Of a stretch of DNA of 64,000 nucleotides, positions 9,810 to 64,000 are shown in pieces (position 1 is the stretch's first letter; every line of letters starts with the position of its first letter). This DNA is from Methanorbis furvi. Its GTDB lineage: Archaea; Halobacteriota; Methanomicrobia; Methanomicrobiales; Methanocorpusculaceae. Both the position numbers and the translations under genes were made by a program. The notes under the pieces are model-generated. The model was not told the DNA's origin, did not search any database, and saw nothing but the letters and a program-made list of their open reading frames with translations. The stretch is from the NCBI RefSeq assembly GCF_032714615.1, contig NZ_JAWDKA010000002.1, positions 1 through 64,000 of the forward strand, read 5' to 3'.

Positions 9810-10424
9810 ATGGGGTCGCAGTGGACAAAAGATAAAATATACAAAAAATCTGTGCGTGACGGCTATCGTGCCCGGTCCGCCTACAAACTCATCGATATCA
9901 ACGAACGGTTCAACATCATCCGCCGCTCCGACAACGTCGTCGACCTTGGCGCCGCTCCCGGCAGCTGGCTCCAGGTCCTCCGCACCATGACCGACGGCCA
10001 GCTGCTTGGTGTCGACCTCAACCCCATCGTCCCCATGGAAAACGTCATCACCGTCACCGGCGACTTCACCGCCCCTGACATCCAGCAAAAAATTCTCGAA
10101 CTCATGCCGCTCGTCAACGTCGTCGTCTGCGACGCCTCTCCTCACCTCTCCGGTGCCAAAGCTTATGATCAGGCACGCATCATGGCACTCAACGAAGAAG
10201 CCCTCCGTCTCACCGAAAAACTTCTCAAACAGGGCGGCAACTTTGTCATGAAATCCTTTCAGGGCGTTGACTTCAACGAACTCGTTGACCTTGTCAAAGA
10301 GCGTTTCTACTCAGTCAAAGTAATCAGATCCACTGCCACCCGCAGAGGGAGCACCGAGTGCTACATCATTGCAAAGAACTTTATCGGAGATGCTGATGAT
10401 GACCGGAAACAAACCACTGAATGA
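9810..10424 (+). CDS. rlmE: 23S rRNA 2'-O-ribose methyltransferase RlmE/FtsJ
   Basis: A SAM-dependent methyltransferase of the RrmJ/FtsJ family that methylates ribose 2'-OH of rRNA. The 204-residue protein starts at the ATG with a GGAGG site eight bases upstream (9797-9801); an upstream in-frame ATG at 9732 is rejected. It contains RSAYKLIDI (first catalytic lysine of the K-D-K-E tetrad), the SAM motif VDLGAAPGSWLQV, the VVCDASPHLSG segment with the catalytic aspartate, GGNFVMKSFQG with the second lysine, and STECYIIAK with the glutamate. No extra C-terminal domain is present. Its end overlaps the moaA start. Confidence 0.94.
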   Translation: MGSQWTKDKIYKKSVRDGYRARSAYKLIDINERFNIIRRSDNVVDLGAAPGSWLQVLRTMTDGQLLGVDLNPIVPMENVITVTGDFTAPDIQQKILELMPLVNVVVCDASPHLSGAKAYDQARIMALNEEALRLTEKLLKQGGNFVMKSFQGVDFNELVDLVKERFYSVKVIRSTATRRGSTECYIIAKNFIGDADDDRKQTTE

Positions 10425-11373
10425 CGATATCCTCACCGACACCTACGGCCGGACCATCTCCAACGTGAGAATCGCCCTCACCAACGCCTGCAACCTCAGA
10501 TGCATCTACTGCCACCACGAAGGCGAGGAGATCAACGGCTGCACGGTAGACAACAGCCGTGCCCAGATGACCAAAGAAGAGATCGCCGAACTCATCGGCG
10601 TTTTTACCGAACTTGGCGTCACCACCCTCAAACTCACCGGCGGCGAACCAACCCTGCGGCCTGACCTCCTTGACATCATCAGATCCATTCCTCCAGACGT
10701 TGAGTCCTCCATGACCACCAACGGCACACTTCTTGCAAAAATGGCAAAGGATCTCAAAGCCGCCGGACTCTCGCGGGTCAACGTCAGCCTTGACACCATG
10801 CGCCGCGACCGGTACCTGAAAATAACCGGCCGTGACCTGCTGCCTGACGTTCTTGCCGGAATCGAGGCCGCACTTGACGCAGGACTCATTCCGGTAAAAC
10901 TCAACATGGTCATACTCAAAGGTATCAATGACGATGAAGTTGAAGATTTCCTCTCCTATGTCAGAAACCGGAAAAATCTCATACTTCAGATCATCGAACT
11001 CATGGACGTCAATGGATGGGCTGATCACATCGACCATGTCGACGACGTCATCAGAGGTGACGCAGAAATTGTCGGTGACTTAGAAAAAAGCATCGCTGAA
11101 AAGTCCACCCAGATTATCACCCGAAGAATGCACCACCGCAGAAAATACTGTCTTGACGGTGCCGAGGTTGAAGTGGTGCGCCCGATGCACAATCTTGAGT
11201 TCTGCGCAAACTGTAACCGGCTCCGTGTCACTTCAGACGGCAAACTCAAACCATGTCTGCTCCGTTCCGACAACGAAGTGGACATACGCGGTCTCCATGG
11301 CGATGAACTGAAGGCAGCGATTGCAAAAGCAGTTCAACACCGCTCACCGTATTTCACCCAGAATACAGAATGA
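10396..11373 (+). CDS. moaA: GTP 3',8-cyclase (molybdenum/tungsten cofactor biosynthesis)
   Basis: A radical SAM enzyme that starts molybdopterin synthesis by rearranging GTP. The N-terminal cluster site is CNLRCIYC (CX3CX2C), followed by KLTGGEPTLRPDL. A second C-terminal cluster site appears as CANCNRLRVTSDGKLKPC (CX2CX13C), as in MoaA. The usual C-terminal GG tail is absent; the protein ends in NTE, which is common in shorter archaeal forms. Starts at 10390, 10396 and 10399 are possible; GGAG at 10386-10389 favours 10396 or 10399. Methanogens need the tungsten/molybdenum cofactor for formylmethanofuran dehydrogenase. The 3' end was copied into the spacer at 13316-13399. Confidence 0.92.
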   Translation: MMTGNKPLNDDILTDTYGRTISNVRIALTNACNLRCIYCHHEGEEINGCTVDNSRAQMTKEEIAELIGVFTELGVTTLKLTGGEPTLRPDLLDIIRSIPPDVESSMTTNGTLLAKMAKDLKAAGLSRVNVSLDTMRRDRYLKITGRDLLPDVLAGIEAALDAGLIPVKLNMVILKGINDDEVEDFLSYVRNRKNLILQIIELMDVNGWADHIDHVDDVIRGDAEIVGDLEKSIAEKSTQIITRRMHHRRKYCLDGAEVEVVRPMHNLEFCANCNRLRVTSDGKLKPCLLRSDNEVDIRGLHGDELKAAIAKAVQHRSPYFTQNTE

Positions 11374-11382
11374 TCTACTTTT

Positions 11383-11460
11383 TTTCTTTTTCTGAAGTAC
11401 TCAGTGCCAATTTCTATATACAAATACAGATAAAAATGTAATTATTAGTATTATGGGGGT
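11383..11460 (+). promoter_or_regulatory. T-rich moaA terminator and promoter of the first Cache lipoprotein
   Basis: The run CTTTTTTTCTTTTTC after moaA fits an archaeal oligo-T terminator. A TATA-like TTTCTATATA lies at 11411-11420, about 50 bp before the start codon, and a GGGGGT ribosome site at 11455-11460. The same layout is repeated before the second lipoprotein (TATA-like at 13441-13450). Confidence 0.6.
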
Positions 11461-11469
11461 AATAACATC

Positions 11470-13140
11470 ATGAAATACTTATTCAGTCTGATACTTGGTA
11501 TATGCCTTGTACTGTCAGTCTGTACTGCCGGCTGTGTCCTTCCCCTGCCGACACAGCAGTCCGATATACCAGACTACTATGCCGAACAGGTGGAGCTCGC
11601 ACACAAATTTGCTCTTGGTATCAGCAATGACACCTCCGTTCTTGGCAATGCTCTCATTTCCGCGATAGAGTATCAGTCAAACTTTTCTGCTGACAGTCCC
11701 GAGGTTTTGGAAAGCCTCCGCGACTTGTATATGCACAACCCAAGTGCCACGTCCATCTATCGGGTAAACGTCGACAACGTTGTGGTAGCCGCAGTTCCTG
11801 AATCTGCATCGCACCGTGTTGGTTATCAGATACCTCTCCTGGAATTTGATCCGTTCAACCTTGCATACCCCATATATCACAGCACCTATGTACGAGAAAG
11901 TACCGGCGAAACTCATCTGTTGTTCTGCGTTCCGGTGTACACCAGTGATGGAATCTATGACGGGTTCCTCTGTTATGTCATTGACCCCAAGTCCAAAGTA
12001 CTCGTCGTCCCGTCTCGTTCAGTGATACCACGTGAAGGAGTTATTGTGATGGTTTTGGATGAGAACGGGGATGTTTTGTACGCTGACAACACCAAACGGA
12101 TTGGACAGAATGCAATTTTGAATGCACAGATCGCAGGTGAAAACGAAACGGCTGCTGTAATAAAAGAGATGCTCTTGACACAAAACGGCACTGCAACCTA
12201 CACCGCTTACAGCTTCAGCAACATGAAGTATATCACTATTGCCGTTGCATGGGAAACTCTTGAGACGAGATCAGGACCTCTCACCATCGCGGTCGGCAAA
12301 CCCATCACCGATTATCAGACTGTCGTGCGTCCTTCGTCAAGCACCGACGAGACACTCGAAGAGTTTGTCCAGTCCGCGTATCTGTATGCGGTCAAATACG
12401 GCAAAAATGCAGCGATTGAAGCCTTCAATGATCCTAAGAGTCAGTTTGTTACTCAGCAGTACACCATCTCTGCAATTGATATCAACGGCACCATCCTTGC
12501 AAATCCGATGCTCCCGGGCGACGTCGGCGTGAACTTGATCGCCAACACAGACGTAAACGGTGTCCCAATTGTTAAAACACTGGTTCAGCGGGCAAAACAG
12601 GGAGGAGGGTATGCCCTGTATCTCCATCCTGACCCGATGGATAATCAGGAGATGAAGGTGAAACGTTCGTATGTCATGCCGGTTGATGAAAACTGGTTCA
12701 TTGTTGCCGGTATCTACACAGATACTGACGAAAAGTACGTGGATCACCAGCTTCAGAATGCCATGGTTGCGTACACCCGCCATGTTGCCCAGTACGCTCA
12801 GACTTACGGCAAGGATGCAGCAATTGATGCATTGAACACGCCGAACGGTCTGTTCTACTCTGAAGATATCAGGCTTGTTGCGGTCGACTCCGCAGGCACC
12901 ATCCTCGCCCGTCCCTACAATCCCGAGCTGATCGGCAACAGTCTCCTTGGCGCCACTGATATCTACGGTTCATCGCTCGGCCGTGATCTGGTGGTGCTGG
13001 CGAACTCGGGCGGCGGCATGATATATCAGTATTATCCAAACCGGTACACCAATGAAAATCACATGACGCTCATGTATGTGCTGCCGATCGATGATACCTG
13101 GTTCCTTGCCTCAGGTATTACCATGAAGCAGGCACCCTGA
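11470..13140 (+). CDS. secreted lipoprotein with tandem Cache-type sensor domains
   Basis: A 556-residue cell-surface lipoprotein. Residues 1-22 are a signal peptide ending in a lipobox (CTAGC, lipid-carrying Cys22). Residues about 35-285 form a double-Cache-like extracellular region. Two further repeats of a single-Cache type follow at about 296-420 and 432-556; each has a YAVKYGKNAAIEAFND-like helix, a DINGTILA or DSAGTILA strand, an RAKQGGGY or NSGGGMIYQY segment and a final VDENWFIVAG or IDDTWFLASG strand. Cache domains bind small ligands outside the cell, but there is no transmembrane segment or signalling domain, so it may work as a binding lipoprotein or with a partner. Paralogue of the next gene. 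Confidence 0.88.
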   Translation: MKYLFSLILGICLVLSVCTAGCVLPLPTQQSDIPDYYAEQVELAHKFALGISNDTSVLGNALISAIEYQSNFSADSPEVLESLRDLYMHNPSATSIYRVNVDNVVVAAVPESASHRVGYQIPLLEFDPFNLAYPIYHSTYVRESTGETHLLFCVPVYTSDGIYDGFLCYVIDPKSKVLVVPSRSVIPREGVIVMVLDENGDVLYADNTKRIGQNAILNAQIAGENETAAVIKEMLLTQNGTATYTAYSFSNMKYITIAVAWETLETRSGPLTIAVGKPITDYQTVVRPSSSTDETLEEFVQSAYLYAVKYGKNAAIEAFNDPKSQFVTQQYTISAIDINGTILANPMLPGDVGVNLIANTDVNGVPIVKTLVQRAKQGGGYALYLHPDPMDNQEMKVKRSYVMPVDENWFIVAGIYTDTDEKYVDHQLQNAMVAYTRHVAQYAQTYGKDAAIDALNTPNGLFYSEDIRLVAVDSAGTILARPYNPELIGNSLLGATDIYGSSLGRDLVVLANSGGGMIYQYYPNRYTNENHMTLMYVLPIDDTWFLASGITMKQAP

Positions 13141-13230
13141 CGTGCGGGGTTCCTGGCTTCCATTATTTTTCGTAGTATCTGTCTATTTTCATGACCGATT
13201 TTGCTTTCATGTGGTTGAATATATACCCCA

Positions 13231-13315
13231 ATGAACGACTCAGAAATACTGATGAATCCAGGCGATCTGGTACAGTTCCTGAAAAAAAGATCCTGTTGAA
13301 TTTACCAAAAAAGAT
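13231..13315 (+). pseudogene. glnA 5' fragment, frameshifted (duplication relic)
   Basis: This matches the first codons of the glutamine synthetase at 15280 (MNDSEILMNPxDLVQFLKK). An extra A in the lysine run shifts the frame and gives a stop after about 22 codons. The 5' flank back to the end of the first lipoprotein also matches the flank of glnA. The match ends near 13315, where moaA-like sequence begins. Confidence 0.9.
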
Positions 13316-13399
13316 AACGGTCTGCACGACGATGAGCTGAAGACAGTTATTGCCAAAAAAATTCAGCACCGTCTCCTATATTTCACTCAGAAATTATAA
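13316..13399 (+). pseudogene. moaA 3' fragment (duplication relic)
   Basis: Read in frame this gives NGLHDDELKTVIAKKIQH and a YFTQ ending before a TAA. It aligns with the last 28 codons of moaA (RGLHGDELKAAIAKAVQH...YFTQ). It is followed by a T-rich tract and TATA-like element matching those downstream of moaA. It has no start of its own. Confidence 0.9.
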
Positions 13400-13497
13400 T
13401 TATCATCTTTTTTTCTCACTCAAAAATACCCGGTGCCAATTACTATATAGAACCACAACCAATGAGATAAATATTATCATTGGGGGTAAATAACGGC

Positions 13498-15165
13498 ATG
13501 AAATATCTGATATATCTGGTGCTTGGCATCTGTATGATACTGTCAGTCTGCATGGCAGGCTGCATTTTTCCTCTACCGTCAGACCAGTCTGACAAACCAA
13601 GCGATTATACTGAACAGATAGAGCTCGTGCACACATTTGTTCAAAGCGTCGGCAATGATATCACCGCGCTTGGCAGTTCCCTCTTTGCCGAAGCAGACTA
13701 TCAGGCTGATTTTGCTGCCGACAGCCCTGAAATCGCCGCCAGTCTCAGTAACTTGTATGTACATAGTCCCAGCTCCTTGTCCGTGTACCGAATCACTGCT
13801 GACAACGTCGTGGCTGCCGCCGCTCCCAAAACTGCAATGTTTCCGGTAGGCTATCAGATACCCTCACTGGAATTTGACCCGCAAAATTTTTCCTATCCGG
13901 CATATCAGAATATTTGCCAGAGAGACACCGGTGAATTCCAGATGTCTGTCATAGTTCCGGTCTACACCAGAAACGGATCCTACGATGGTTTCCTCTGGTA
14001 TTTCCTTGATCCTATGTCCAAAATACTTGTCATTCCGGCACGTTCAGAGTTGCCGCGTGACGAGGTTTTTGCCATGATTATGGATGAAAATGGTGTTGTT
14101 CTCTTCTCTGATGATTCCAAAGACATCGGACGAAATGCAATTTCGATGGCATATGCATCCGGTCAGTATGAAACGGCTGCCGTGCTTGAGAAAATGATCT
14201 CCACCAAAAATGGTACTGCGACCTACTCCACCTACAGTTATGGCAGTTTGAGGTACATCACCCTTGCCGCGGCATGGGATACGCTTGAAACAAGGGTTGG
14301 TCCCCTCACCGTCGTGGTCGGCATACAAACTGCTGAACGACAGCTTGTTCCAAGTCCCACGTCAAACACAGACAAAACCCTCGAAGAATTTGTCCAGTCC
14401 GCATATCTGTATGCGGTCAAAAACGGCAAAGATGCAACACTCGCCGCCATCAATGATCCGAACGGTCAGTTTGTTACAAAAGAGTACGCCATCACCGCAA
14501 TCGACATCAACGGAACTCTCCTTGCAAGCGCAATGATGCCTGGCGATATCGGCGAAAATCTGATCGCTGACACGGATGGAAACGGTGTTCCAACCATTCG
14601 GACGCTGGTTCAGCGGGCAAAACAGGGAGGGGGCTATGGAATGTATCTCTGCCCCAACCATATGCAAAATCAGGAGATCGAGGTAAAACTCTCCTATGTC
14701 GTGCCGATTGATGACACCTGGTTCGTTTCTGCCGGCAGCTATATGAAGGAAAAAGCAAGGTACGTGGATCCGGAGCTTAATAATGCCATGATTGAGTACA
14801 CCCGCCAGGTTGCCCAGTATGCTGCTGTCAACGGTAAAGATGCGACAATTACGGCACTGAATACTCCGAACGGCCCGTTTTACTCTGAAAATATCCGGCT
14901 TATTGCGATTAACTCCACAGGTATCGTTCTTGCCCGTCCTTACGACACGGAGCTTATCGGCAACGATGCCGCGGCCGCTGTCGATATCTACGGCGGATCA
15001 TTTGGCCGCGACCTGATGGTGCTGGGAAACTCAGGCGGCGGTATGGTGTATGAATATTATCCCAACCGGTACACCGGCGAAAATGATATAACACTTATGT
15101 ATGTTCTGCCGATTGATGACACCTGGTTCCTTGCATCAGGCATCACCATCACTGCAGAGTCCTGA
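13498..15165 (+). CDS. secreted lipoprotein with tandem Cache-type domains (paralogue)
   Basis: A 555-residue paralogue of the preceding lipoprotein with the same plan: signal peptide with lipobox CMAGC (Cys22), double-Cache-like region to about residue 290, and two single-Cache repeats ending in IDDTWFVSAG and IDDTWFLASG. The start is the ATG at 13498, because it carries the same GGGGGTAA ribosome site and spacing as the paralogue; an in-frame TTG at 13480 lies ahead of that site. Sequence divergence is clearly greater in the N-terminal ligand-binding part than in the C-terminal repeats, which suggests that the binding specificity has changed since duplication. Flanks show that it arose by tandem duplication. 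Confidence 0.88.
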   Translation: MKYLIYLVLGICMILSVCMAGCIFPLPSDQSDKPSDYTEQIELVHTFVQSVGNDITALGSSLFAEADYQADFAADSPEIAASLSNLYVHSPSSLSVYRITADNVVAAAAPKTAMFPVGYQIPSLEFDPQNFSYPAYQNICQRDTGEFQMSVIVPVYTRNGSYDGFLWYFLDPMSKILVIPARSELPRDEVFAMIMDENGVVLFSDDSKDIGRNAISMAYASGQYETAAVLEKMISTKNGTATYSTYSYGSLRYITLAAAWDTLETRVGPLTVVVGIQTAERQLVPSPTSNTDKTLEEFVQSAYLYAVKNGKDATLAAINDPNGQFVTKEYAITAIDINGTLLASAMMPGDIGENLIADTDGNGVPTIRTLVQRAKQGGGYGMYLCPNHMQNQEIEVKLSYVVPIDDTWFVSAGSYMKEKARYVDPELNNAMIEYTRQVAQYAAVNGKDATITALNTPNGPFYSENIRLIAINSTGIVLARPYDTELIGNDAAAAVDIYGGSFGRDLMVLGNSGGGMVYEYYPNRYTGENDITLMYVLPIDDTWFLASGITITAES

Positions 15166-15279
15166 CGTGCGGGGTCATCACCCCTCACTATTTTTTTCGA
15201 CAGTATCTGCCTTTTTTCATGACCGGTTTCACTTTCACATGGTTGAATATTTATGTCGTCCCTTCGAATATTTACCCCA

Positions 15280-16782
15280 ATGAACGACTCAGAAATACTG
15301 ATGAATCCAAGTGATCTGGTACAGTTCCTGAAAAAAGATCCTGTTGAATTTACCAAAGAAGATATCATCCGTTTCTGTGAGGAAATGGCCATTGAGATGG
15401 TGAATTTCCGGTATGTTGCCGGCGACGGAAAACTGAAGACGCTGAATTTTGTCATCTCATCTAAAGAGTATCTGGATACTATCCTTTCGGATGGAGAGCG
15501 TGTTGACGGCAGCAATATTTTTCCGTTTATCGAGGCAGGCAGCTCCGACCTCTACGTTGTTCCGCGTTACAGCACTGCATTTATGGATCCGTTTGCAGAG
15601 GTGCCGACGCTTGATATCCTCTGTTCCTATTATGATAATCAGGGCAGACCTCTTGCTTCGTCACCTGAGTACATCCTCCGCTGTGCCCGCGATGCGTTTA
15701 AGAAAAACACCGGCATGGACTTTAAGTGTCTCGGCGAGCTTGAGTATTATGTGATCTGTCCAGAGGATTCCCTGTATCCCGGCCTTGATCAGAAAGGGTA
15801 TCATGCGTCCGGTCCGTTCTGTAAGTTTGAGGAGATGCGGACCGAAGCCATGCTGATGGTCGCCCGTGCCGGCGGTAAAATCAAGTACGGCCACTCGGAA
15901 GTCGGCTGCTTCACCAAAGACGGTTACTACTATGAGCAGCATGAGATTGAGTTCCTGCCAACCGATCCGATCCTTGCGGTTGAGCAGATTGTGATTGCGA
16001 AGTGGGCGCTTCGGATGCTTGGATACAAGTATGGTGTTGAGGTTTCGTATGCACCAAAGATCACCGTCGGCAAAGCAGGTTCCGGTCTGCACTTCCACAT
16101 GCTTGCCGAAAAGAACGGCAAAAATATGATGGTAAAAGACGGCGCGCTTTCAGACATTGCCAAGCAGATGATTGCAGGCATTCTCGATGTCGGCGATGCG
16201 GTTACGGCGTTCGGCAATCCGATTCCAACTTCATATCTGAGACTTGTTCCGCATCAGGAGGCACCGACCTATATCTGCTGGGGCGACCGCAACCGGTCTG
16301 TTGTGGTCCGTGTGCCGCTCGGTTGGACTGGTTCAACTGATATGGCAGCTGAGGCAAACTTCGGTATCCACCGCAAGGCGAGCAAGGCGTCCAAGCAGAC
16401 GTTTGAGTACCGGGTTGCTGATGGTGCGGCAGATATTTATGAGACGGTCGCCTGCCTGATTGTTGGTGCGATGCATGGTCTTACTATGCCGGATGCGCTG
16501 GAACAGGCAAAGAAGCTGTATGCAAGCGGCAACATCTTCAACAAGGAGTATGCGGCGTTCCTGAAGACGTTAAAACAGCTTCCTGCTTCCTGCTCTGAGT
16601 CTGCAGATGTGCTTCTTGCAAAACGCGCACTGTTCGAGATGGATGGTATTTTCCCGGCAGGTGTGATTGATTCCCAGGCAAAGAAACTGAAGGCGTTTAA
16701 TGATAAGGGGCTCTCGGATAAGCTGCTCGGCAATACCAAGGCGTTTGCAGAGCTTGTTGCGCAGTACATCCACGTTGCCTGA
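15280..16782 (+). CDS. glnA: glutamine synthetase family protein
   Basis: It probably condenses ammonia with glutamate using ATP. The 500-residue protein has a beta-grasp N-terminal part and a catalytic barrel. Recognisable elements are the metal-site strand GELEYYV, EQHEIEFLP (metal/substrate), GSGLHFHM (ATP/metal), YLRLVPHQEAPTYICWGDRNRSVVVRVP (glutamate-flap region) and FEYRVADGAADIYETVACL (late metal site). These match the family, but several positions differ from classical GlnA, for example PTSY in place of VNSY, so a GS-like activity on another amine is not excluded. ATG 15280 is preferred because the relic copy at 13231 conserves it; ATG 15253 is the alternative. A TATA-like element just upstream suggests a leaderless mRNA. 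Confidence 0.85.
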   Translation: MNDSEILMNPSDLVQFLKKDPVEFTKEDIIRFCEEMAIEMVNFRYVAGDGKLKTLNFVISSKEYLDTILSDGERVDGSNIFPFIEAGSSDLYVVPRYSTAFMDPFAEVPTLDILCSYYDNQGRPLASSPEYILRCARDAFKKNTGMDFKCLGELEYYVICPEDSLYPGLDQKGYHASGPFCKFEEMRTEAMLMVARAGGKIKYGHSEVGCFTKDGYYYEQHEIEFLPTDPILAVEQIVIAKWALRMLGYKYGVEVSYAPKITVGKAGSGLHFHMLAEKNGKNMMVKDGALSDIAKQMIAGILDVGDAVTAFGNPIPTSYLRLVPHQEAPTYICWGDRNRSVVVRVPLGWTGSTDMAAEANFGIHRKASKASKQTFEYRVADGAADIYETVACLIVGAMHGLTMPDALEQAKKLYASGNIFNKEYAAFLKTLKQLPASCSESADVLLAKRALFEMDGIFPAGVIDSQAKKLKAFNDKGLSDKLLGNTKAFAELVAQYIHVA

Positions 16783-16810: not shown

Positions 16811-16834
16811 TTACCTATCGTTTCGCCGTTTTGT

Positions 16835-17004
16835 CGCTCCGCCCACGGAAAAGCGGAGCACACTGAATTTCGCTGAAAAAAACATCACGGAGCAGACGTG
16901 AACATCACAGAAATGAATTGTTTTGGATTCCGTGTTGTTCACGTCTACTCCGTGATATTTTTCTGTGAAATTTCTGTGTTTTCCGTTTTTCCGTGGGTGG
17001 TAGG
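16835..17004. repeat. palindromic repeat, family A copy 2
   Basis: The arms GCTCCGCCCACGG (16836-16848) and CCGTGGGTGG (16991-17000) enclose the core CACGGAGCAGACGTGAACA and its inverse, with the short loop about 16914-16930. This is the shortest full copy in the window. The rest of the gap to 17155 is AT-rich and shows no gene. Confidence 0.85.
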
Positions 17005-22122: not shown

Positions 22123-23267
22123 GCGATTATGTTTTGGAGTTTGATGATGTGTGGTACTCGTACCCTGCTCGTCCCCCGTCTCTTTCGGGGATTTCGTTTG
22201 CGGTTGAACGCGGCAAAAAAGTGGCTGTTGTCGGTCCGAACGGGGCTGGCAAGACGACGCTTCTTCTGATGTGCAACGGGACGCTTGTTCCGGAAAAAGG
22301 GTCTGTGCGAGTCGATGGGGCTGAGATTGAGTATGACCGCTCGTCTCTCCGGCGTGTCAGAATCGCGGTTGGGCTGGTGTTTCAAAACTCGGACGCGCAG
22401 GTGTTTGCGCCGAGTGTGTATGCTGATGTGGCGTTCGGGCCGGCGAACCTGCGGCTGCCTGAAGATGAGATCCGATCGCGTGTTTCTGATGCGCTGTTTG
22501 CGGTTGGTCTCGCCGGTTATGAGCGGCGTGCGCCGCATCATCTGTCAGGCGGGGAAAAAAAACGTGTGGCGATCGCTGGAATTTTAGCGATGAAGCCGGA
22601 GATTTTGGTGGCTGATGAGCCGACTGCGTCGCTGGATCCTGCTACTGCGGCTGAGATCATGGATCTTTTGGATGAGCTGCATGAGGATGGGACAACGATT
22701 CTGTTGTCTACACATGATGTGGAGCTTGCGTACCGCTGGGCTGATGAGGTGATTTTGCTGGGCGGCGGAGAGCTGCTGCATCAGGGAACACCCGCTGCGG
22801 TGTTTACGGATCGCGAGTTGATGCGGTCTGCCCGGCTGACGCCGCCGGTTCTGCTGGATTTGTATATGGAGCTTTCCCGCAGGAGTCTGGTGGATGCTGA
22901 TGTGCCGCCGAAGGGAATTCCTGAGATGACGCAGTTGATTGAGGGTGTTCCATCGAAGGAGAGAAAATTCGGCACGGTGTTTGTTGCAGATACTGATGTT
23001 CTCACGAAAGAAGGGCTTGACACGCTGTGTGCTGAGCATTCTTCCCGCCGCATGGGAGCGATGGGGACGCGGGCAAAGCGTTTCTGCCATGATGCGGGTC
23101 ATTCACCGGATTATACGTACGGTGTTGTGGATAAGTGCCTGCTTGCGGCGATGACCGGCGAAGATACGCTGATTCTGACCTGCGGAGGAATGCTGGACCG
23201 CGTGGAACTGCGGGCACGGCTGTTTGCCGAGGAGAGCGGGATTTCTGTGCCGGTCGTGCGGGTGTGA
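22119..23267 (+). CDS. cbiO: cobalt ECF transporter ATPase CbiO with C-terminal extension
   Basis: The ATPase of the cobalt importer. Walker A is GPNGAGKT, the Q-loop region is VFQNSDAQVFAPSV, the signature is LSGGEKKRVAIAG, Walker B is ILVADEPTASLDP, and the switch histidine lies in LLSTHDVEL. The ABC part ends near residue 245. About 110 further residues (about 270-382) form an extra domain with the segments KFGTVFVADTDVLTKEGLD, MGTRAKRF and a terminal GGMLDRVELRARL; I do not recognise a function. ATG 22119 is chosen: it has GGAGG upstream and an ATGA overlap with cbiMNQ. Confidence 0.92.
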   Translation: MSDYVLEFDDVWYSYPARPPSLSGISFAVERGKKVAVVGPNGAGKTTLLLMCNGTLVPEKGSVRVDGAEIEYDRSSLRRVRIAVGLVFQNSDAQVFAPSVYADVAFGPANLRLPEDEIRSRVSDALFAVGLAGYERRAPHHLSGGEKKRVAIAGILAMKPEILVADEPTASLDPATAAEIMDLLDELHEDGTTILLSTHDVELAYRWADEVILLGGGELLHQGTPAAVFTDRELMRSARLTPPVLLDLYMELSRRSLVDADVPPKGIPEMTQLIEGVPSKERKFGTVFVADTDVLTKEGLDTLCAEHSSRRMGAMGTRAKRFCHDAGHSPDYTYGVVDKCLLAAMTGEDTLILTCGGMLDRVELRARLFAEESGISVPVVRV

Positions 23268-23274
23268 ATATTTC

Positions 23275-23482
23275 GAAACGTGAATAGCACAAATAAAAAA
23301 TCGCCAATGGCGATTTTTAGAAAATTATCAAGTTACTTATTTTTAGATAGAGGTATTCAGGGACTCATAAAGATAAAAAAATCGCTATTGGTGATTTTTT
23401 TTATTCCGCGAAGCGGTGAGCAGGCCGCATGCGATTCGCGCTATTCTGTGAAGCAGTGAGCACGACGGAACGGCGTGCGATT
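23275..23482. repeat. palindromic repeat, family B copy (AATCGCCAATGGCGATT type)
   Basis: AAAAAATCGCCAATGGCGAT at 23296-23315 is followed, after about 70 bp, by a degenerate inverse (AAATCGCTATTGGTGATTTT) and then TTCCGCGAAGCGGTGAGCAGGCC and GCATGCGATTCGCGCTATT. A second degenerate block (GAAGCAGTGAGCACGACGG...GTGCGATTCG) follows. It sits directly after cbiO and may act as its terminator. Confidence 0.75.
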
Positions 23483-28904: not shown

Positions 28905-29118
28905 CAGCTCCGCCCACGGAAAAACGGAACACACTGAGTTTCACGGAAAAACATCACGGAGCAGACGTGAACAACACGGAAATTAAAAAACAATCAAAAA
29001 TTATTTTATGAGAGTACGATAATATTTTTCGAGTGAGAGTTCCGTGTTGTTCACGTCTGCTCCGTGATGTTTTTTCTGTGTGTTTTCCGTGTGCTCCGAT
29101 TTTCCGTGGGCGGAGCTG
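28905..29118. repeat. palindromic repeat, family A copy 3
   Basis: The arms start CAGCTCCGCCCACGGAAAA and end TTTTCCGTGGGCGGAGCTG, so the ends are a perfect inverse match. The core CACGGAGCAGACGTGAACA appears at about 28954-28972 and its inverse at about 29048-29066. The loop between (about 28980-29040) is AT-rich. The remaining 118 bp up to the tex start show no gene. Confidence 0.88.
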
Positions 29119-33360: not shown

Positions 33361-33438
33361 GAATATGATTTACCATTATGAGGCGCTGAGGGATAGCCTT
33401 TTTCACCTTAACTTTGAATCGCTCACATTACCGCTTCG

Positions 33439-33604
33439 TAGCTCCGCCCACGGAAAATCGGAAAACACTGAGCTTCACGGAAAAACATCACGGAGCAGAC
33501 GTGAACATCACAGAAATAAAAACAAATTGAATTCCGTGTTGTTCACGTCTGCTCCGTGATGTTTTTTCCGTGAAATTTCCGTGTGTTCCGTGTGTTCCGT
33601 GGGC
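33439..33604. repeat. palindromic repeat, family A copy 4
   Basis: The arms run from TAGCTCCGCCCACGGAAAA to TCCGTGGGC, with the core CACGGAGCAGACGTGAACA at about 33490-33508 and its inverse at 33539-33559. The loop is only about 30 bp. It lies in the 308-bp gap between the TPR gene and the minus-strand zinc protein; nothing else is visible there. Confidence 0.87.
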
Positions 33605-40254: not shown

Positions 40255-40790
40255 ACTGCGATGAAACGCGAATAGCGCAAATCGCATGCCTTTGGCCTGC
40301 TCACCGCTTCGCGGAATAGCGCGAATAAAAAATCGCCAATGGCGATTTTTAAAATATTACCAAAATTATTTTTTAGACAAATTTCTCTGTTCGAAAAATG
40401 CAAATGATTTTTCTTTTGAAAAATTTCCATTGGCGATTTTTAAAAAATTACCAAAATTATTTTTTAGACAAATTTCTCTGTTCGAAAAATGCAAATGATT
40501 TTTCTTTTGAAAAATTTCCATTGGCGATTTTTAAAAAATTACCAAAATTATTTTTCGCACAAATTTCTCTGTTCGAAAAATGCAGATGATTTTTTTCTTT
40601 TGAAAAATTTCCATTGACGATTTTTAAAAAATTACCAAAATTATTTTTTAGACAAATTTCTCTGTTCGAAAAAATGCAGATGATTTTTTTCTTTTGAAAA
40701 ATCGCCATTGGCGATTTTTTTATTCCGCGAAGCGGTGAGCAGGCCAAAGGCATGCGATTCGCGCTATTAGCGTTCTTCGCGTTTCAAAAA
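40255..40790. repeat. palindromic repeat family B enclosing a 4x tandem array of 91-94 bp
   Basis: Outer inverted arms: AATCGCATGCCTTTGGCCTGCTCACCGCTTCGCGG (40275 onwards) and its inverse ending near 40770. Inside lie four direct copies of a 91, 91, 93 and 94 bp unit, beginning at 40341, 40432, 40523 and 40616 and ending in a last GGCGAT at 40710. Each unit contains TTACCAAAATTATTTTT, CAAATTTCTCTGTTCGAAAA, ATGCAAATGATTTTT and ATTTCCATTGGCGATTT. Short open frames run through the array only because the unit lacks stops in one frame. No gene is seen in this 546-bp gap. Confidence 0.92.
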
Positions 40791-43805: not shown

Positions 43806-45212
43806 TTAGGGGATTATTTGCCAGTGTCCGGTTTTGTTTGAGCCGACTCTGATGATTGAACCATTTTTTTGTAACATCTGAATCAGGCGGGCGACAGTAC
43901 TCCTACTGAGGGTTGTTTCACGGGCAATATCCGCATAGGTTGCTTTCGGATTTTTCTTGAGATAGTCTAAAACCAGTTTTTCCAGCGTGGACTCGTTGTG
44001 TAATGACTCATTTATAGTCTCATTTATAGTCTCATTTATAGTCTCATTTATAGTCTCATTTATAGTCTCATTTATAGTCTCATTTATAGTCTCATTTATA
44101 GTCTCATTTATAGTCTCATCCTGAGGTTCATCATACCGGAAGGTTACACGGAGATAATTTGGAGAGAACACGAATATGGATCTGTCGTACTTTGCAAGTA
44201 TTCTCCTGAGTCCTGAACCAAGCTGTTCTACAAGATTCAGGTCCCGGAATATTCTCATCAGTTCCTGATTTCTGGGAGCAGAAATTCCTGCGAAAAATTC
44301 TTCCTCGGTAAGATTCTGCGGGAGCCCTCCTGCTGATGTGATCATTATTCTGTCTGAAAAAATTTCTACGGTTGGTGCTGTACCTCGCGAGTAGTCGTTG
44401 TGTACGATTGCATTGATCACGGCTTCCCGCAGTGCACGCGAGTCAACAAGGCGTTTTTCGATACGTTCTTTCCCTGTTATCTTCGTGCGGGTGATGTTTA
44501 TCAGTTCAAGTTTGTCAAGCATCTGGGTTGTGGCTTTTACCAGCGAACAGTATCCCAGCTCTTCATTTTCGATGAGATCGATTTTGTCAGAGCCAAAATA
44601 TCGTGCGACTTTCAGGGATACGCCGTTTGTGTCTGCGAGCAGATAGGCTGCATAATTATATTCTCCATCGCGGTTGATGAGACCAAGATTTCTGAGAAAC
44701 GTGTCGTTGATGGTGTACCCTTTTTCCTCATAATATATTTTCAGCTGGGCAAAGCTCAGCGTCTGGATTGGTGAGACCATGAGTCCAAGGGTGTTGTGGG
44801 TTCGTTTTGCATAATATTCATCGATTTTTTGCTGCGACATCTGCTGAATGCCGGCACCCACGCGAAGGTAACAACCGCGGGGAGACATGCCGTATCGTGT
44901 CAGGTAATAGGGTTTCTCCGGTCCGCTGGAGATGGTTATTTTCAAATAGGCTTTTTCGTCGTGATGGTATGTTTCAATATCAAATAATCCGAGAGTTGAA
45001 GGGGAGATGTTGTCCTTGATTCTGTTTATTATTGTAAGCTGTGTTGCATCAGGATCAGAAATTCCGCAGACTGTTCCGTCGTCAGCTATGCCGATATACA
45101 GGTATCCGCCTTCTTTGTAGTTTAAAAATGCGACAACTTCTTTTTCGAGTTTTTCGGTGAGCATAGCCTTGAACTCTGTTCTGTTGTCCTCTGCAATGGG
45201 TAATGTATTCAC
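43806..45212 (-). CDS. AlbA_2-domain putative transcriptional regulator with (TINE)9 linker
   Basis: The N-terminal AlbA_2 domain (formerly the Schlafen/divergent AAA-4 type) shows EDNRTEFKAMLTEKLEKEVV and GGYLYIGIADDG. A middle domain resembles the ATP-binding HATPase-like C-terminal part of such proteins (LREAVINAIVHNDYS, IMITSAGGLP, RNQELMRIFRDLNLVEQLGSGL). Nine Thr-Ile-Asn-Glu units form a linker, then a C-terminal winged helix (ATYADIARETTLSRSTVARL). Role: probable DNA-binding regulator. No ATG fits: an ATG at 45434 would overlap the upstream gene by 110 bp, so GTG 45212 (468 aa) is used; the start is uncertain. Confidence 0.75.
   Translation of the reverse strand: MNTLPIAEDNRTEFKAMLTEKLEKEVVAFLNYKEGGYLYIGIADDGTVCGISDPDATQLTIINRIKDNISPSTLGLFDIETYHHDEKAYLKITISSGPEKPYYLTRYGMSPRGCYLRVGAGIQQMSQQKIDEYYAKRTHNTLGLMVSPIQTLSFAQLKIYYEEKGYTINDTFLRNLGLINRDGEYNYAAYLLADTNGVSLKVARYFGSDKIDLIENEELGYCSLVKATTQMLDKLELINITRTKITGKERIEKRLVDSRALREAVINAIVHNDYSRGTAPTVEIFSDRIMITSAGGLPQNLTEEEFFAGISAPRNQELMRIFRDLNLVEQLGSGLRRILAKYDRSIFVFSPNYLRVTFRYDEPQDETINETINETINETINETINETINETINETINETINESLHNESTLEKLVLDYLKKNPKATYADIARETTLSRSTVARLIQMLQKNGSIIRVGSNKTGHWQIIP
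44005..44118 (-). repeat. 12-bp tandem repeat (nine units) inside the AlbA_2 gene
   Basis: Nine consecutive copies of GTCTCATTTATA (first one partial) lie at about 44007-44112. On the coding strand each unit encodes Thr-Ile-Asn-Glu. Copies are identical at the DNA level, which suggests recent slippage. Gain or loss of a unit keeps the frame. Confidence 0.95.
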
Positions 45213-49959: not shown

Positions 49960-50245
49960 TCGAAATTTTTTTTCAAATAGGAGTTACGCGGTGGTGAATA
50001 TTTCGAAACGCGAATAACACGAATAGCGCGAATCGCATGCCTTTGGCCTGCTCACCGCTTCGCGGAATAAAAAATCGCCAATGGCGATTTTTCAAAAAAA
50101 ATTCCTATGCATCTCTAAATGGATGGATGTGTCCATAAAAATAATTTTGATAATTTCTTAAAAATCGCCATTGGCGATTTTTATTCGCGATATTCGCGTT
50201 TTAGAACTCACACCGCGTAAATCCTATTCAAAAAAAATTTTCAAA
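49960..50245. repeat. intergenic inverted repeat spanning two convergent gene ends (family B)
   Basis: The outer arms about 49963-50015 and 50196-50240 match in inverse (GGAGTTACGCGGTG...AATATTTCGAAACGCGAAT versus the mirror GCGTTTTAGAACTCACACCG). Inside lie AATCGCATGCCTTTGGCCT, AATCGCCAATGGCGATTTTT (50070-50090) and the inverse AAAAATCGCCATTGGCGATTTTT (50159-50182). It fills the whole 318-bp gap except for its edges. Either side ends a gene, so bidirectional termination is plausible. Confidence 0.82.
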
Positions 50246-63871: not shown

Positions 63872-63959
63872 TCATCACTCCCACTCACCACTAATTTGTT
63901 TGCATTTTTGTTCGTGTGTCTTGTGTTTCAAAAATCACGCCGCATAATTTCTATTCTGA

Positions 63960-64000
63960 AAACTTGCCATTGGCGATTTTTTCATTCGTGCTATTCGCGT
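63960..64000. repeat. start of a family B repeat cut by the window edge
   Basis: CTTGCCATTGGCGATTTTTT followed by ATTCGTGCTATTCGCGT matches the right half of the family B unit seen at 40700 and 50160. The rest of 63572-63690 and 63872-63959 shows no gene. Confidence 0.55.

Follow-up and report, generated by a model that had tools for sequence, protein, structure and literature searches.

Between moaA and glnA, two Cache-domain lipoprotein genes are separated by a chimeric fragment in which the head of glnA is joined to the tail of moaA. A colinear repeat of the whole unit, a novel join with both parent genes intact and a relative with a single lipoprotein together confirmed that this fragment is the scar of a tandem duplication. 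The best explanation of the locus, which we hold with high confidence, is that a block of about 2 kb was duplicated before the genome studied here (G000) and that of its sister species (G033) split, that the halves of the scar have since recombined with the intact parents and that the lipoproteins diverged. The window analysed is the 64 kb at the start of contig C2 of G000, a genome of 1.85 Mb in 26 contigs. We refer to the upstream and downstream lipoproteins as A0 and B0 in G000 and as A3 and B3 in G033.

The repeat and its junction

Self-comparison of the window with blastn returned a single long colinear direct repeat, 72.0% identical over 2,059 columns (E=0); no other direct repeat in the 64 kb is longer or scores higher. 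The repeat passes through the flanks of the parent genes and terminates where the halves of the scar join (Table 1). Copies 1 and 2 meet in the chimera, where glnA, represented by its promoter region and initial ~85 bp, runs into the last 28 codons of moaA. A search of the G000 genome with the 360-base junction matched only itself and 15163-15364 (E=2.8e-41), and protein searches recovered both fragments independently (glnA at 13231, E=8.7e-4; moaA at 13316-13393, E=5.2e-4). Chance similarity as the source of the repeat is ruled out by the E=0 self-match and the search of the G000 genome with the junction. A preliminary description of this DNA had interpreted the spacer as a glnA-moaA chimera left when a ~2 kb block, starting at the 3' end of moaA and running to the 5' end of glnA, was duplicated in tandem, and had proposed that the copies would align across the whole block; these data bear it out, and its coordinates proved accurate to within 1-2 bases. 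The inserted A that it placed in the glnA fragment is present in the assembly, as a run of 7 A compared with 6 in the parent.

Table 1. Features of the moaA-glnA locus, in window coordinates.
Feature	Position	Strand	Basis or remark
moaA (radical SAM, molybdenum cofactor synthesis)	10420..11373	+	Pfam Radical_SAM and Mob_synth_C; start codon tentative
moaA last 84 bases, start of the repeat; moaA is the intact parent of the scar's 3' fragment		+	self-blastn, alignment
Repeat copy 1, from the moaA tail through the promoter, lipoprotein A and 3' spacer to the glnA head (scar)	11289..13316	+	blastn
TATA-like core 5' of lipoprotein A	11405..11428	+	alignment of A0, B0, A3 and B3; putative promoter
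Cache-domain lipoprotein A, 556 aa	11470..13140	+	ORF; Pfam sCache_2, dCache_2
Copied lipoprotein 3' spacer / glnA upstream region, minus 21 bases	13141..13230	+	alignment
Scar first half: glnA first 85 bp plus one inserted A	13231..13316	+	compared with 15280 onward
Scar second half: moaA last 28 codons	13317..13399	+	boundary ambiguous by 1-2 bases
TATA-like core 5' of lipoprotein B	13434..13457	+	four-copy alignment; putative promoter
Repeat copy 2	13318..15364	+	blastn
Cache-domain lipoprotein B, 555 aa, 60% identical to A	13498..15165	+	Pfam sCache_2/dCache_2
glnA (glutamine synthetase), the intact gene behind the scar's 5' fragment	15280..16782	+	Pfam Gln-synt_N, Gln-synt_C

Identity along the repeat is very uneven, a feature absent from the preliminary description. 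Counted without gaps, it is 76% in the moaA tail, 72% in the spacer and promoter, 72% in the lipoprotein, 80% in the 3' spacer and 95% in the glnA head. Within the scar, the moaA half is 76% identical to 11290-11373 and the glnA half differs from live glnA by 3/85 substitutions. Also unmentioned in that description is a 21-base gap in the G000 scar, at bases upstream of glnA that the parent and G033 both retain and that two GAATATTTA-like repeats flank. The reading frame of this scar terminates at codon 23. The promoter had been described as kept at both copies. Both lipoproteins do retain the TATA-like core, in which 18 of 31 columns are invariant across A0, B0, A3 and B3, so the duplicated block brought a putative promoter with it that would drive expression of each copy.

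We searched for glnA and moaA in 25 genomes of the genus, one per species. The two genes lie near each other on one contig in six (G000, G033, G004, G008, G001 and G005). G004 has moaA, one lipoprotein and glnA, the single-copy relative that the preliminary description had predicted; in G008, G001 and G005 no lipoprotein lies between the two genes, and in G036 the contig starts inside a lipoprotein located 5' of glnA. Only two of the 25 genomes, G000 and G033, gave a glnA head fragment; G016, G032 and G013 are uninformative, as they yielded no full glnA. Like G000, G033 carries a pair of lipoproteins separated by a chimera. Here, however, glnA contributes its first ~159 bases and moaA its last ~57-63, unlike the 85 bp and 84 bp of G000, and the junction is therefore not the fixed breakpoint it had been taken for. 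The G033 join sits on CTGAAG, a sequence found in both parents; overlaps of at least 6 bases occur at 0.3% of possible joins. Because G033 joins the halves at other positions, either the scar was remodelled or there was more than one duplication. Later remodelling could explain the differing joins.

Age of the lipoprotein copies

Phylogenetic analysis placed A0, B0, A3 and B3 in one clade, separate from the G004 and G036 lipoproteins, with B0 and B3 as sisters (support 100/100). Topologies pairing A0 with B0 and A3 with B3 were rejected on protein (pAU 3.9e-5 and 5.8e-115) and on DNA (pAU 4.4e-6 and 1.6e-57), indicating that the duplication predates the split of G000 and G033. For the core of the repeat, these tests rule out independent duplication in each species.

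The synonymous distances are 0.99 for A0-B0, 0.83 for A3-B3, 0.40 for B0-B3 and 1.09 for A0-A3, compared with 0.56 for moaA and 0.58 for glnA. The A0-A3 distance is thus roughly double the moaA and glnA values, and one duplication with subsequent speciation does not account for it. It exceeds what simple orthologues would give; rapid evolution of A0, its replacement or its origin in an earlier duplication may be the cause. The protein tree unites A0 and A3 at 60/51, close to a trifurcation; the best DNA tree sets A0 outside A3+B (93/96), with a pAU of 0.067 for the A0+A3 grouping. Since the trees do not settle whether A0 and A3 are orthologues, a single duplication event is not proven. A possible though doubtful alternative is that two illegitimate duplications built an array of three units before the split, from which a different unit was then lost in each species, so that the two joins would be original breakpoints. 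The differing joins and the position of A0 in the DNA tree fit this history, as does an A0-A3 distance greater than A3-B (0.71-0.83); it requires two events and two losses, however, the data do not reject A0+A3 on either DNA or protein, and the similarity of the flanks would need conversion anyway. We regard as distinctly unlikely that a diverged moaA-lipoprotein-glnA allele was imported from another species in place of internal copying. Recombination between alleles could account for strongly diverged paralogues whose flanks look young, and A0 is far from all other copies, but no donor was found among the 25 genomes of the genus, and A0, B0, A3 and B3 cluster together to the exclusion of G004 and G036.

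Proposed exchange between the scar and its parents

The preliminary description had also used the scar to date the two paralogues. This claim is not supported: the glnA half is far too similar to its parent, the flanks group by genome and G033 joins the halves elsewhere. The paralogues differ by ~1 synonymous change per site, while the glnA half of the G000 scar has the three substitutions noted above; in G033 the scar glnA head differs from its parent at 11/159. Changes limited to the scar number two in G000 and six in G033. At the rate of lipoprotein B, the expected change is ~18% per lineage since the split, and the shortage of changes is significant in both genomes (p=1e-5 and 1e-7); at an assumed low local rate of 0.09 per lineage, a value of our own choosing, this weakens to p=0.009 and 0.015. 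Site patterns are independent of any assumed rate. Sites supporting within-genome versus between-genome grouping numbered 12 and 4 in the flanks and 22 and 129 in the core (Fisher p=8.6e-7), with flank limits that were chosen after the pattern was seen, though they match the anatomy. The flank trees are weak, with a pAU of 0.043 for the 3' flank and 0.11, not significant, for the 5' flank.

The two genomes differ in the side affected. The G000 scar and G000 glnA have two bases in common that are absent from G033 and five outgroups. On the moaA side, the flank is identical to the parent at 56/60 positions in G033, in the stretch beside the moved join, versus 47/68 in G000. Thus, the glnA side looks affected in G000 and the moaA side in G033. 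The grouping of the flanks within genomes is best read as later gene conversion, and in G033 the move of the join onto the CTGAAG overlap and the renewal of the moaA tail could both stem from one event. Because the scar has apparently been partly overwritten since the duplication, it is not usable as a clock.

A slowly evolving glnA head is a caveat against reading the similarity of the scar as conversion. The first 84 bases of glnA (15280-15363) had 0/153 synonymous codon differences among four relatives, and all other segments compared had 14-48 of 136-168. This silent-site conservation is less strong in moaA, and the remaining clades of the genus did not show it. Constraint from 5' regulation is a possible cause. 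Such conservation in part of the genus, and a scar 95% alike, would fit a scar kept as a working regulatory element, duplicated from the leader and 5' coding region of glnA. We find this very improbable, since the G000 scar is frameshifted and minus the 21 upstream bases, and the slowness does not extend to the other clades.

In the reading we favor, tandem duplication followed by exchange, the block was copied before the split, as the trees show, and the new join fused the glnA head to the moaA tail, with a lipoprotein gene and its putative promoter on either side. After the split, the halves of the scar would have kept recombining with the adjacent intact ends of glnA and moaA, by gene conversion or template switching as the site patterns suggest, so that the scar came to look partly young and its join point shifted in each species. 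In this reading, the two lipoproteins diverged freely, and the join in G000 is non-coding debris. It is unlikely, though conceivable, that the dead glnA fragment acts as a standing recombination partner whose base changes get written into the working glnA. If so, the two bases common to the G000 scar and glnA would be such a transfer, one of which changes residue 22 from alanine to valine.

Function, genomic context and comparison with known systems

No function is indicated for the scar, because the G000 frame stops early and part of the glnA upstream region has been lost. It is scarcely credible that the glnA head and moaA tail make up a new small fusion gene: although G033 has an open frame of 71 codons after an apparently complete glnA upstream region, an in-frame join is expected by chance one time in three, the frame is closed in G000, and the changes in the G033 scar look unconstrained. 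Protein-level selection on the chimera is unsupported, as five of the six changes limited to the G033 scar alter the peptide.

Cache proteins of this lipoprotein family occur at ~9 places in the G000 genome. One is a tandem set of three at G000:C5:25000-33500, with a unit of ~1.8 kb and 76-82% identity, and the family has therefore grown in tandem more than once in G000. Both loci hold adjacent copies of the same family. Unlike the scar locus, the C5 repeat begins ~40 bases from where the last lipoprotein ends and finishes inside another one, and no scrap of a flanking gene was recognised in that array.

The window also contains other repeats. A long palindrome of ~170 bases lies at 16826-16997, and also at 271-505, 28906-29111 and 33431-33603; its hairpin has a predicted energy of -98 kcal/mol (z -12.9). 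Across the G000 genome it has at least 80 matches, corresponding to ~40 places with both strands read (40 of 200 candidates scored), and it is abundant in G033 too and weakly present in five others of the 25 genomes. It resembles a MITE-like element or a structured intergenic repeat. An AT-rich tandem array spans 40328-40719 (91-base unit, 4.2 copies), with related pieces at 23258-23445, 49988-50199 and 63948-64000, and a perfect 12-base tandem repeat with 9.4 copies lies at 44007-44119.

A literature search with combined terms found no paper, and the accessible text of PMC10035134 has zero occurrences of the terms searched for. The kind of event described here is well known and ordinary; its value lies in a readable scar that seems to be changing still. 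The locus offers a clean, legible record of growth of the Cache lipoprotein family in Methanocorpusculum, and a caution that duplication scars beside intact parents can be overwritten, so that similarity does not date the event.

Tandem duplication can leave a novel join between flanking genes. As in the general case, the sequence between the copies here joins the downstream gene's head to the upstream gene's tail, with the parents intact outside; unlike it, the G000 duplication is old, with paralogues 60% identical in protein, and the join can still be read. Interlocus gene conversion between tandem duplicates is the subject of, for example, PMC3924818 and PMC2588116. Our locus is similar to such conversion in that segments group by genome and the remainder by copy. 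It differs in that the duplicated lipoprotein genes themselves show little sign of conversion, and the segments affected are gene scraps beside live housekeeping genes.
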